A stretch of DNA of 64,000 nt from Bactericera cockerelli (Eukaryota; Arthropoda; Insecta; Hemiptera; Triozidae): positions 47,164,300 to 47,228,299 of the forward strand of contig CM044957.1 of NCBI GenBank assembly GCA_024516035.1, in the 5' to 3' direction. Below, in pieces: positions 13,517-61,600 of the stretch (positions are counted from its first letter, which is position 1; every line of letters begins with the position of its first letter). Under the pieces are notes generated by a model. The model did not search any database. It saw nothing but the letters and a program-made list of their open reading frames with translations, and was not told where the DNA came from. The position numbers were made by a program, and so were the translations under genes.

Positions 13517-13620
13517 ACATGGCGGAAGATGAAGATGGCCACATTCCTGACTGAAATGAACCAGAGGATAAAACTGGAGTCTGTGTCCACACCTGACATA
13601 CATACAATGGCCTCGCGAGG
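13517..13620 (+). CDS. ABCC5: ABCC5-like candidate exon 0 (N-terminus)
   Basis: It follows a good acceptor (CATTCTCCACAG). An ATG in good context at 13,519 opens [11 protein letters not shown] but stops after 11 codons. A second frame runs through (ATG at 13,529/13,535; [20 protein letters not shown]) to a weak donor AGG/GTATTT. The outgoing phase (2 nt) fits exon 1, whose first residues continue YTDVELD. A one-base error could join the two frames. Support is phase agreement plus the same junction-copying seen at proven exons (see 13,568-13,790). No homology evidence. Confidence 0.4.
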
Positions 13621-16600
13621 GTATTTATACAGTAATGGGTCTGAGTCTTATCCTGCTCCGAGACAAATTTTTTTAAAACTGGAGTCTGTTTCCACACCTG
13701 ACATACATACAATGGCCTCCGAGGTTATACAGGATGGGTGACTTTATCCCTCGAGAAATTTTTAAAACTGGAGTCTCTTTAATATTAGAAATCGGAAGTA
13801 TTGTGTCATCATCTTCGCACTAGTGGTTCTTGGTGATAGAGACGATGCGCCTGACCACTAACTTTTACTTATACCTTATATCTCGTGAACGGTACATCCG
13901 ATTTATGCAACAAATAATGGTTACAACAATTAATGGTTCTTGGTGATAGAGACCATGCGCCTGACCACTAACTTTTACTTATACGCTTATACCTCGTGAA
14001 CGATACAACCGATTTCGATGAAATGTTGTATGTGCGAGTATATCCGTGTAAGCGTTTTACATAGTTCATTTATAATGATTTTTTAATAATTTGAGAGATT
14101 ATTATTGGAAGAGATTGCCACAGGCAATAACCCCACCCTTTAGGTAGGACATTAGCTTCATTCTCTTTTTTTTTCTTCTTACTTTGTTCATTCTATGTAT
14201 TTATTCTTTCTTTATAATTTCATTGTATTTTACTGTATATATTTTTGTCTTACCTAATAAAGCATACTATACTAATAAAATTAAAAAAAAGTTATCATAT
14301 TTGTGTTATTCGTGATATCACAACTACTCAAACTAGCTTTACTAAATCTACGCTGAAAGCTGGACTTGAACCACCGACCTCCAGGTTACTAGTCCGCCGC
14401 CTTATCGATCACTACTGAGGTCGATGATTAAGGACCGTATTATGAAACAGGCTTTGTAAATCTAAGCCGACCCTTAGATTTTATCAGCTACTGAGATCGG
14501 TCTCAAAAGACTAATCGTTATTTTAGCTCGTTATCATATTTGTGTTAATCACAATCACTCAAAATAGTGAAAAGGAGACATAATATTCATACAAATACGT
14601 ACAAGATTAAGAAAAATATAATATAAGAAGATAAATAATCCACCCCCTAAAAGTACAAAAGATATTCTACTTCAAGGGGATTGTAATGAAAAAACTGTAG
14701 AATGAAATTAAATCAACTTATTATTATTATTAATTACTGAGGTCGGTTACTATAATAATAATAATAATAATAAATATGGTAACTTTCTCTCACCACCTTG
14801 CAGCTACACGGACGTAGAGTTGGACAGCTCTCTCCTGTTGGCGCATGCGCACAGACTGGGCCCCGTCTAGCGCACCAGCAGCGCCGTCCATATGTGCCGG
14901 GAGGAATGGTGCGCTACAAGCTGCGCTCAAGAATCCTCTTGCCGTGCGCCGGGAAAAGCAAGGTAAGTTTTAATAATATTAATAATAATATCGCCTTTTT
15001 TCTACTGTCCGATTAAGACTACTAAAGTCCCATTATTCCAGCAGTAAACCCAAGACATATTATTATGTGGTAAACATCCCAAATGGGATTATAACTTGTC
15101 ATGTCCCGGCTGGGTTTCGAACCCACGACCTCTGGAATCTCTGGATTCACAGAGTGTCGCCTTTACCACTGAGCTACCGGGACAGACTTTTTTCCGTGCT
15201 TTTTTCTAATGTCGCTCTAAACTAGGTACTGTAGTACTTTGGATGTCCGGGGTCAACTCATACCTCGTGAAGAGAAATGAGGTTTTTTGATGTAAGCAGC
15301 GACCAGTGGTAGAAATATTGGCAAAAATAAGATGTTGGGATATTCAAGTTGAAAAATTAAATAATACAATTAAAAGAAGGTACAGAAAAGTTTTATAATT
15401 ATGCGCTACCAACTATTTTTTTTAAGTCTACGGATTGAGGCTCCATTGTATACATTAAAAAATAAAATAATATAAATCTTTTAACTAACTAAGCAAGAAT
15501 GTCTATTCCATTGAAAGACATTCTGCTATACTAACACAAAGAAACACATGGGTCATTTTCATTTATCTTGGGCATATCAAGTCCGCAACCTTTCTCCTTT
15601 AATAAATGTGAAAATAATAGGGATATATGACTAAAATCTATTTGATCACATAGGAAACAATTTTTTTTATAAATTACAATAATAAATTGTCTTTTAAACT
15701 AATGTGGAGACTCAAAATTGCCAGTTATGTAAGTAACGTTCATGATATTTTAGGTGTCCCTTGGTCTAAGATTTTACTGTGTCTGATAGAAAAAAATGCA
15801 TTTCTCCCCATTATTTTCACCAAAATCCAATATAAATGAGAAAAATACAGTTTATTTAGGATGTGACCATTAGTTTTCATAAAAATAATAATGTTCACCT
15901 CATTCTACAGACGTGTAAAGTTGTGTCCCTACGAAGAAGAAAAAAATCTCCGTCATGAATGTTACCCCCAAAAAAATGTAAACCATTTTGAAAAACCCTT
16001 AGAATGAGAAGCTAGCAGCTGCCGCCATTTTGCTTCTTACAGATGACATTGTTTTTGTTTTTAAATTTCCTGTCAGTTGGATGTTGGATGCAGTACAGTG
16101 AGGGACAATGGTGGGTCTAATTTTTTTTGACAAGAACGTTACGCGGTTTTTTAAATAAATTGTAATGATTCTTTAATATATAATGTATTTCTTTAATTCT
16201 TCTGCATGTCCTCTTTCCAATCAAATATTTTTTTTTTTTGTAAAGTGAATATTCTTTTATTGAGAAAAGATTGTTTTAGTGGCGTGTTACTCATGAACGT
16301 TACCCGTGGTCATGAACGTTACCTGGTACGTTAAGTTTTTGTAATTTTGTGTGAAGAGGTAGCTGCTAGAAATATTCTAAATGAAAGCTTTTGCTCAAAG
16401 TATTTGTCTTAGTCTTCTGAGCCTAAAAAATTGTTTAGGAAAAAGGTAACGTTCATGACTTGAAAAAATCCAATTGCCCAAGATAAATGAAAATGACCCA
16501 CATATATTTATGGATTTGAAAATTTAAAAACTAAAAAAAGAACATTAAAAATGCTTAAAAAAGACGATAGAATCACTAAACACAATTCGCCTCTGACAAC

Positions 16601-58600: not shown

Positions 58601-61600
58601 TGGAAAACGTGTCCCGCTCCCCCATCTTCTCCAACGTGTCCACCTCCGTGTCCGGCCTCCACATTGTGCACGTGTTCCAGAAGGAGCAGGACTTCGTGCG
58701 CAGGTGTGTACATTCATTTATCTACATGACATAAAGTCTACCTGGGAGACGTTAAACAGGACGTTGAAACCAAATAAAAACAACTGATCACAATAGATGT
58801 AATTAGTCTGGCTGGGGGACGTTAAACAGGGAGAAGACCAGTGTCTCGCTAGAGGACTATAAACAGAGAACAGTCTAGCCAAACCTAACGAGCCAGGCTA
58901 GCTTGCAGTTTCCTAAGGGTTTAATGGCTTATAAAGAAAAGTCCAAGTCCTCATGGTGGTTGATCGCACATAGAAATTTGTGGTTCAGGACGAGCCAACT
59001 TTGAAATAAAGTTGGTTGGAGACCATCACTCACCCCTCCAGCTGTATCCAAGCTGGCTACAACAACAACTAGCTGAAACCCAGCACTTTGTCGCCATTCT
59101 GGTTTTTCATTGTTTTCTGGTTTTTCTGGTATGTTCTGATTTTCATGTACATCTAGTACAACCTCTCACTTTTCTGTTTATACTGATTTTGCCCATTGTT
59201 GGCGTCCAATTTGAAACTTTAAAAAAATCGTTCTAAGCATGCCCCTAACTGACAAATGGAAGCTTTCTGCCAAAATTTAAGGTCATTTGGGCCAGTCGTA
59301 AATGAAAACTAGAAACTCCAGTATTCAGCAACTCTTTTTGATTTCAGGTTTTGTGAACAGTTTGATGAGAACTCGACCAGTTTATTTCTGTGTGGTATGG
59401 CGATGAGGTGGCTTGCTGTGCGCATTGATATTCTGGCAGGTAAGTAGCCACCTAATGAGTAATGAGGATTGATATTCTGGCAGGTAAGTAGCTACTTAAT
59501 GAGTAATGGGGATTGATATTCTGGCAGGTAAGTAGCTACTTAATGAGTAATGGGGATTTAAAGAAATGGAGTCCAGCACCTTAAACACATCGCCTACCAA
59601 TAATTTATAATTATTTTAAATAATAATAATAACACTCTTTAGTGGAAGGTAACCACCAGGCGAAGTTAATGCTCAAACCACCTAACCCTTATAGTCTGGC
59701 CGTTAACCACTTGACTACCATTTTGACTTGACTACCATTTTGACTACCACTTGACTACCATTGTTTTATTATTTTTTTTTTCTTAAAGATCATTGTAAAC
59801 TTTTTGACCATTGTATACACCCGTCAGGGTAATTTTACAAATAAAACATCTATCTATCTATCTTGGTCACAAAAGTCACAAAAGATCTATCTAAGGTCGC
59901 AGTGACAAAGAGCTTTCGTAGCCGATAGCCCTACCTTTACCGATACCAATCTATCATGGTGTTCCTCCCGTGTGTTCCAGTGACCGCCATGGCTATCATA
60001 GCGGGCCTCACTGTGGCCTTCCACGGCTTGACTACCATTTTTTTTTTTTTTTTTTTTTTTAAAGATCATTGTAAACTTTTCGATCATTGTATACACCCGT
60101 CAGGGTAATTTTACAAATAAAACATCTATCTATCTATCATGGTGTTCCTTCCGTGTGTTCCAGTGACCGCCATGGCTATCATAGCGGGCCTCACCGTGGC
60201 CTTCCACGGCTTGACTACCATTTTTTTTTTTTTTTTTTTAAGATCATTGTAAACTTTTCGATCATTGTATACACCCGTCAGGGTAATTTTACAAATAAAA
60301 CATCTATCTATCTATCATGGTGTTCCTTCCGTGTGTTCCAGTGACCGCCATGGCTATCATAGCGGGCCTCACCGTGGCCTTCCACGGCTCCCTCTCCCCG
60401 GCCCTGGCAGGCCTCGCCTTAACCTACGCGGCCCACATCACCGGCCTCCTCCAGTACACTGTGAGGGTCTTTGTCGAGACCGAGCTTAACCTTCTGGCTG
60501 TGGAGAGAATCAACAACTGTAGCAAGGTAAGTATTTAAATCATCATCAACAAAATCGGGGGTCTTTTAAAAAAAATTAGTAAAGAGCCACGCTCGCGTTG
60601 TTTCCTGGTTGAAAGGTTATCCTTAGCCATTCAGCGAGGAAACAGTGCGAGTGTATTAGGCTCTTTACCTCCCACTGAGCGAATGGAAGAAATATTTTAC
60701 TTGTAATAACTTAATGAAATATTTTACTAGTATTTGTGAGATGTGACATCACATTAAAACAAAAAAACATCATCTTCTCTTGATCCGTATTTAAATTGTA
60801 ATCCTAAAAATTCTATATGCACTGAAATTTTGTATTATTTTGACTTTGTAATTTTGTGTAAACAATTATTTACAATAAAAACTTTATTTATTTATAAGTG
60901 CGCGGACACAACGGAGTCCTATACCCTGGCCCCTGGAGTACCTCGTAGAATAATATATATTATAAAACATAATACTTCCGATTTCTAATATTAGAAATTT
61001 CTCGGAAGTAAAAATACCTATGAAAAAAATTGAAATCGGAGCAAAACAATATATTTTTTTACAAAAACAAACACAATATTTCCGATTTCTAATATTAGAA
61101 ATTTCTCGGAAGTAAAAATACCTATGAAAAAAATTGAAATGGGAGCAAAAAAATATTTTTTTTTACAAAAACTAGCACAACAATACTTCCGATTTCTAAT
61201 ATTAGAAATTTCTCGGAAGTAATAATAATTAAATTATGCTATTAAATGTAAGCATCCTTGGTTCACTACCAGATGCTGTTCAGATGAAAGAATTTTTTAA
61301 CTTATAAATGTTATTATAAACTTATAAAAAAAAACTTGTAAATGTTATTATCTTGTTGATTTAAAGTAAAACCGCTTTACCATGCTATTAAATGTAAGCG
61401 GTCACAATGGAGTCCCAAAATATGTCTATATCAAGCTGTAGGTACCAGGGTCTGGGGTCTAGGGTGTAGGGTATAGGCCAGGGTCCTCGTTGTGGCCGCC
61501 TACTTAGTAACAAACATGAAGGAATATAGAGTATAAGAATATATCTTATAGAGATATAAGTTATGAGTTATAATCTTATGAAATAGATAAAAGATATAAT

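Follow-up and report, generated by a model that had tools for sequence, protein, structure and literature searches.

Splice junctions within tandem arrays

We analyzed a stretch of 64,000 nucleotides from the psyllid Bactericera cockerelli (assembly GCA_024516035.1, contig CM044957.1, positions 47,164,300 to 47,228,299 of the forward strand; here referred to as the window), which carries a gene for an ABCC5/MRP5-like transporter. At 12 of the 23 mapped exons of this gene one of the two splice junctions is embedded in a tandem array, on the donor side at seven (E2, E3, E10, E12, E14, E19 and E21) and on the acceptor side at five (E4, E5, E15, E16 and E22). The repeat units are 33–178 bp long, and both length and sequence differ from junction to junction. 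Arrays of this class are already known, because the “mirages” of amphioxus, tandem repeats lying over an intron-exon border, have the same anatomy (PMC3087553, PMC3902484). The psyllid arrays are probably mirage-type minisatellites, which arose because local tandem duplication recurs preferentially at junctions and which are tolerated as the copy nearest the exon is likely the one spliced. Within the literature searched, the second phylum and the density of arrays in one gene are new. With arrays at about half of the detected exons, the gene would add another lineage and a number of cases sufficient to ask what draws tandem duplications to junctions.

The borders of exons E2–E24 were determined by tblastn with the Cacopsylla protein P0001 and the Diaphorina citri protein P0241, plus direct reading of the borders. 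AG precedes and GT follows every one of these 23 exons, which sum to 3,479 bp with a GC content of 53%; their introns comprise 43,307 bp with a GC content of 36%. Exon 9a and a probable exon E0 raise the number of detected exons to 25, and E1 was not found in the homology mapping of the window. Exon 9 occurs in two versions, 9a and 9b, which may be mutually exclusive: 9a is present in D. citri P0241, 9b in P0243 and both, consecutively, in Cacopsylla P0001. Among solved structures, human-type ABCC5 was the best match of the concatenated exon translations (8wi2 for the first half, E = 2.7e-69; 8wi3 for the second half, E = 9.7e-197). The top match in the protein database was Cacopsylla melanoneura MRP5, with 79% identity across the 697 residues queried, and the next named insects reached about 50%. 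A protein search with the Cacopsylla sequence gave four D. citri entries at 75–82% identity; the D. citri proteins are labelled P0241 (1407 aa), P0242 (1293 aa), P0243 (1694 aa) and P0244 (1542 aa). Judged by these similarities, the gene encodes an ABCC5/MRP5-like transporter, and its nearest relatives are psyllid genes.

A preliminary description of this DNA had listed junction arrays at 13 exons. Tandem Repeats Finder (TRF) recovered the arrays at the places and with the units given there (Table 1), and 12 of the 13 exons were confirmed by TRF and by 32-mers centred on the junctions. The case of E0 is weaker: the exon itself has a homologous match in D. citri P0241 (E = 1e-6), and its repeat, two copies and a stub, is absent from the TRF list of the window. 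The outermost copy is always the real exon, the first in donor arrays and the last in acceptor arrays. Thus it is true that the arrays begin or end exactly at a real exon, but this is no extra coincidence, because the unit covers the junction, and whenever a junction is duplicated in tandem one of the copies remains the exon. Matches to a chosen nearby copy take in 14–113 nt of exonic and 22 nt or more of intronic sequence (E16 donor excluded), so that the unit has no fixed boundary on either side. At E16 the array has a compound structure: 33-bp acceptor units are nested in a unit of about 300 bp that also includes the initial 113 nt of the exon. At each array the repeated 32-mer is that of a single junction, with no copy common to the other end of the intron, as judged from counts and not from end-to-end alignment. 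The 39-bp unit at E3 occupies most of 18.7–29.9 kb; the copy number of this array is uncertain, because the stretch 20060–21600 has 14.6% deletions vs 0.7% substitutions and resembles unpolished long reads.

Mobile elements interrupt two of the arrays. The E3 array contains an insert resembling a short interspersed element (~18780–19090), in which ARAGORN called no tRNA, its tRNA origin being a reading from sequence only, and a reverse-transcriptase element on the minus strand (24607–26671). A poly(A)-ended insert (~49440–49775) with TAGGTAAGAT on either side divides the E14 array; as TAGGTAAGAT also occurs within the E14 repeat unit, this is consistent with a target-site duplication and is not proof of it. 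The arrays at E3 and E14 are older than the inserts, because the latter interrupt them.

Arrays without an exon are few, as had been noted. TRF detected four junction-free loci from 13.4 kb on, all of them intronic, and only two had been named earlier. At 9506–9592 lie four copies of a 21-bp unit with an acceptor-like CTACAG end, with no adjoining exon proven.

Enrichment at junctions

TRF reported 81 rows in the window, and those with a score of at least 80 and a period of at least 10 from 13.4 kb on were kept. The resulting 19 intervals became 16 loci by hand-merging two pieces each of E3, E14 and E15; the lists of loci for the chance tests were compiled by hand from the TRF output. Twelve of the 16 loci contain a junction (at E3 and E15 the TRF interval holds copies of a junction, and the real exon adjoins it); without merging, a junction is overlapped by 10 of the 19 intervals. 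When a single unit per locus was placed at random, 1.16 junction loci were expected vs the 12 observed (P = 7e-12), and for a stricter set of 14 loci with a score of at least 200 the expectation was 1.1 (P = 1.4e-12). When the exon map was shifted circularly 600 times, a mean of 4.8 and a maximum of 9 loci had a repeated junction. None of the shifts reached 12, and the enrichment of arrays at junctions exceeds chance in this gene.

A second test did not depend on TRF: copies of the 32-mer centred on each junction were sought within 3 kb at up to 25% mismatch. A local copy was found at 13 of 46 junctions, or 12 once the E16 donor was dropped, vs 210 of 3528 intronic control 32-mers (6%) outside junction arrays (Fisher p = 2.5e-6 and 1.4e-5, respectively). 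For exon-internal 32-mers the proportion was 8.2% of 293. The E16 donor copy at 54940 was dropped as a match of only 9+17 nt across an inserted element, possibly a target-site duplication. This element (54448–54957) is flanked by a near-identical 26-nt stretch including the E16 donor, either a target-site duplication or a two-copy junction repeat. Counts of junction 32-mers were equal in the whole window and within 3 kb, except for the E3 donor with its 11-kb array, and array copies are confined to their own array within the window. Since the units differ and the copies of the junction 32-mers are local, one transposed repeat does not explain the arrays; their common property is position, and on both points the preliminary description holds. 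The junction preference of the arrays is established for the ABCC5-like gene in the window.

One explanation dispenses with any mutational bias toward junctions: duplications would occur anywhere, and arrays at junctions would persist longer or be easier to see. The exon parts, GC-richer (53% vs 36%) and more complex than the intron, may aid exchange between copies, and arrays of pure intron do exist (4 of 16 loci). Both kinds were detected under the same TRF settings, yet junctions occur in 12 of the 16 loci and would be expected in about 1.2, and we regard this explanation as unlikely.

Table 1. Exons of the ABCC5-like gene and tandem arrays in the window
Feature	Position	Strand or location	Unit and copies	Basis
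E0 donor-side repeat (exon E0, from 13517, probable; donor candidate)	13517..13790	+	2 copies plus stub, starting at 13570, 13675 and 13764	sequence reading
E2 donor array	17151..17648	+	104 bp x 4	TRF and junction 32-mer
E3 donor array	18700..29910	+	39 bp and longer composites	TRF and sequence reading
E4 acceptor array	30398..30745	+	87 bp x 4	TRF and junction 32-mer
E5 acceptor array	31502..31768	+	86 bp x ~3	TRF and junction 32-mer
E10 donor array	43559..44394	+	105 bp x 8	TRF
E12 donor array	47104..47601	+	33 bp x 15	TRF
E14 donor array	49185..49967	+	63 bp x 4 + 3 around insert	TRF
E15 acceptor copies	50920..51790	+	64-65 bp, irregular spacing	TRF
E16 acceptor array	53494..54364	+	33 bp within ~300-bp (302) composite	TRF
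E19 donor array	57197..57859	+	70 bp x 9	TRF
E21 donor array	59424..59558	+	44 bp x 3	TRF
E22 acceptor array	59949..60389	+	178 bp x 2.4	TRF
Junction-free array	30927-31209	intronic	138 bp x 2.0	TRF
Junction-free array	41302-41379	intronic		TRF
Junction-free array	52326-52393	intronic		TRF
Junction-free array	60965-61227	intronic	104 bp x 2.5	TRF
Exon E2	17018..17176	+		homology and splice borders
Exon E3	18601..18748	+		homology and splice borders
Exon E4	30732-30874	+
Exon E5	31724-31814	+
Exon E6	33257-33428	+	no array
Exon E7	34223-34370	+	no array
Exon E8	35160-35308	+	no array
Exon E9a	36231-36338	+	no array
Exon E9 (9b)	39751-39861	+	no array
Exon E10	43501-43632	+
Exon E11	44469-44586	+	no array
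Exon E12	46922-47118	+
Exon E13	48177-48326	+	no array
Exon E14	49106-49232	+
Exon E15	51778-52006	+
Exon E16	54252-54448	+
Exon E17	55273-55425	+	no array
Exon E18	55882-56011	+	no array
Exon E19	57084-57237	+
Exon E20	58575-58703	+	no array
Exon E21	59348-59439	+
Exon E22	60342-60526	+
Exon E23	61797-61977	+	no array
Exon E24	63620-63803	+	no array

Decoy splice sites

In an ungapped search, GT or AG was kept in 219 of 219 copies, 149 at E3 and 70 elsewhere (including the dropped E16 donor copy). Such a search is biased to copies with a clean centre, and therefore the copies at E2, E3, E10, E12, E14, E16 and E19 were recounted by gapped cyclic alignment, which revealed some loss of splice sites, chiefly through deletions in the noisy E3 array. 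The decoy sites have not decayed, and there is no firm sign of selective retention.

The preliminary description had offered two inferences, a mutational process acting at junctions and redundant splice sites that are tolerated or selected. Mutation biased to junctions, together with tolerance, fits best. If selection retained the redundant donors and acceptors, making the splicing of a long gene more reliable, the GT or AG kept in the copies found would be accounted for, as would the lower substitution of the splice hexamer or heptamer than of the rest of the unit outside E3 (3/332 vs 83/2722, nominal p = 0.02). However, this p value overstates the difference because the copies share ancestry, and at E3, where most copies lie, the donor hexamer is no cleaner than the rest of the unit (21/1278 vs 118/7028 substitutions, p = 1.0). 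Many other unit blocks are as clean as the splice site within single arrays, and exons with weaker sites are not richer in arrays. We consider a role of selection quite improbable.

Repeats in the Diaphorina citri ortholog

Comparison with the ortholog, taking the D. citri junctions to sit where the window gene has them, showed at the protein level that P0243 and P0244 are repeated at the ends of E15, E17, E19 and E20, mostly other junctions than those of the window gene. Both models are tied to genome contigs and are longer than P0241 and P0242. P0243 has a 175-residue insert with 17 copies of a 10-residue repeat, which starts where E15 ends, and its E17 and E20 ends are each doubled. In P0244 the ends of E17 and E19 are repeated; at E19 the protein passes from the exon end through RSVYL and re-enters the exon, a pattern that would be compatible with read-through at a GTCAGT donor such as the window has.

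Self-BLAST gave no internal repeats for four of four proteins, the visibly repeated ones included, and therefore repeated 8-mers were counted. Among 233 ABCC proteins, which are the best listed matches of two protein searches and not all matches, P0243 has 156 repeated 8-mer positions and P0244 has 186; apart from these two, any repeat is confined to a single protein, where it is trivial and occurs once. P0241, P0242 and Cacopsylla P0001, entries that may derive from cDNA, contain zero tandem 8-mer repeats. The only repeated junction common to the window gene and the D. citri models is E19, with different unit sizes, which suggests that the arrays arose independently more than once. Some D. 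citri duplications labelled as assembly errors may be genuine.

Comparison with known systems

The preliminary description knew of no described system of this kind, a statement contradicted by amphioxus mirages (PMC3087553, PMC3902484) and by border repeats in human paralogs (PMC2812944). Mirages are reported in Adh3 (10–72 bp), the globins BflGb6/BflGb9 (150–160 bp), troponin C and PGBD5 (60 and 108 bp), one or a few per gene, and according to data cited there they do not interfere with splicing (PMC3087553, PMC3902484). BflGb6 copy number differs between haplotypes and Adh3 shows somatic instability. Their authors call the mechanism unclear and the phenomenon possibly general in cephalochordates (PMC3087553, PMC3902484). 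As in amphioxus, a minisatellite-like unit spans the exon-intron border on the donor or acceptor side in the psyllid gene, many units bear splice signals, and unit length and sequence are site-specific. Unlike amphioxus, the psyllid gene has such arrays at 12–13 of 25 detected exons, one of them about 11 kb long. Splicing and instability have been reported for the amphioxus mirages, whereas the psyllid arrays are known here from the DNA of one assembly.

Human segmental-duplication genes likewise carry internal tandem repeats at exon-intron boundaries; these vary among recent paralogs and are able to give rise to new introns (PMC2812944). The psyllid case, in contrast, concerns many junctions of one gene, in which no intron has both ends inside one repeat. 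No insect or psyllid case of junction-spanning repeats appeared among the papers listed by our literature searches.

In intron gain by tandem genomic duplication, a new intron is said to be made from duplicated segments. The version of this model with an AG/GT proto-splice site, as cited in PMC3087553, similarly involves local tandem duplication around splice-like sequence. Unlike such gains, the psyllid arrays each repeat one end of an existing intron. Introners, or transposable introns, are copies dispersed between loci, with the repeated sequence tied to splice sites; within the window, the psyllid copies each stay in one array. Earthworm metallothionein repeats were rejected as a precedent, since they are intronic and, in the available portion of PMC12783039, not described as spanning borders.

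Origin of the arrays

Under junction-favouring duplication, each array would start when a short segment containing a junction is duplicated by replication slippage, template switching or unequal exchange. The array would then grow by exchange among its intronic copies, with the exon copy held by coding constraint, and the spliceosome would choose the first of the donors or the last of the acceptors, leaving the mRNA normal. Breaks or stalls linked to transcription or splicing are the foremost candidate cause of the junction preference.

Several points weigh against this proposal. The cause of the junction bias is a candidate only, and the splicing step is read from DNA and not from RNA. The evidence is one gene in one window, which yields no genome-wide rate. 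If all intronic 32-mers are taken as the control, arrays included, 33% of 5941 are copied vs 28% of junctions, because the arrays themselves occupy much of the introns; the junction excess emerges only with arrays counted once or excluded. Exons with and without arrays are alike in donor consensus match (p 0.97), acceptor pyrimidine content (p 1.0) and exon GC (p 0.23) by Mann-Whitney tests, in which E16 was still placed among the donor arrays. The divergence of the anchor copies is not uniform (5/70 at E19, 3/44 at E21, 0/105 at E10 and 1/33 at E12), exceeding that of the inner copies from the array consensus at E19 and E21 and not at E10, E12 and E14. Finally, the D. citri repeats are known from protein models alone, with no DNA in view, and P0244 weighs less because its exons are out of order; the paper on the D. 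citri genome regards the duplicated exons of an earlier assembly as false and lists tandem duplications among the assembly errors (PMC11659978).

Compared with the psyllid homologs, the frame is broken in E6 (33313), E10 (43529) and E0 (13517–13615), and the phases of E6 and E7 do not match (33428/34223). Sequencing noise is the likely source, given the deletion-rich stretch at 20.06–21.6 kb. These defects could instead reflect a decaying or relaxed gene copy that accumulates repeats freely, but most exons (all but E0, E6 and E10) are open, splice sites are intact and identity to the Cacopsylla protein is as high as given above; decay would also not direct arrays to junctions, and we hold it to be very unlikely. 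The least probable source of the arrays, which we give hardly any credence, is false duplication during assembly from noisy reads or merged haplotypes: the deletion-rich stretch, the same frame breaks and the false tandem duplications reported in psyllid assemblies (PMC11659978) speak for it, but many short units with point differences, exon-specific units and mobile elements inside the arrays are unlike merged haplotypes, and D. citri models from two different assemblies are also repeated.

If the arrays are junction-favouring tandem duplications, a wider conjecture is possible, which we put forward tentatively and think somewhat more doubtful than not: psyllid genomes may undergo junction-targeted tandem duplication throughout, of the amphioxus kind but much more active, which continues to copy splice sites into introns and which psyllid genome projects have mistaken for misassembly. 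The process would then be shared by two distant phyla, and splice junctions themselves would be a hotspot of tandem duplication. The arrays also raise the questions of how more than a hundred intact decoy sites are passed over by the spliceosome and whether junction arrays seed new exons or introns. In practice, exon ends that are repeated in psyllid assemblies may be genuine sequence and not errors for removal.

Other elements in the window

Reverse-transcriptase open reading frames (ORFs) with the RVT_1 domain are located at 1220–2365 (+), at 24607–25686 (-) inside the E3 array and at 44591–45160 (+) in intron 11. For one reverse-transcriptase ORF of the window, the best match was from Cacopsylla (52% over 59% of the query); the same query matched Cyamophila (48% over 55%) and D. 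citri (35%), lower among mostly unnamed sequences. ARAGORN also called one tRNA-like gene in intron 9 (41531–41609), with its anticodon undetermined, which is probably a tRNA-derived repeat.

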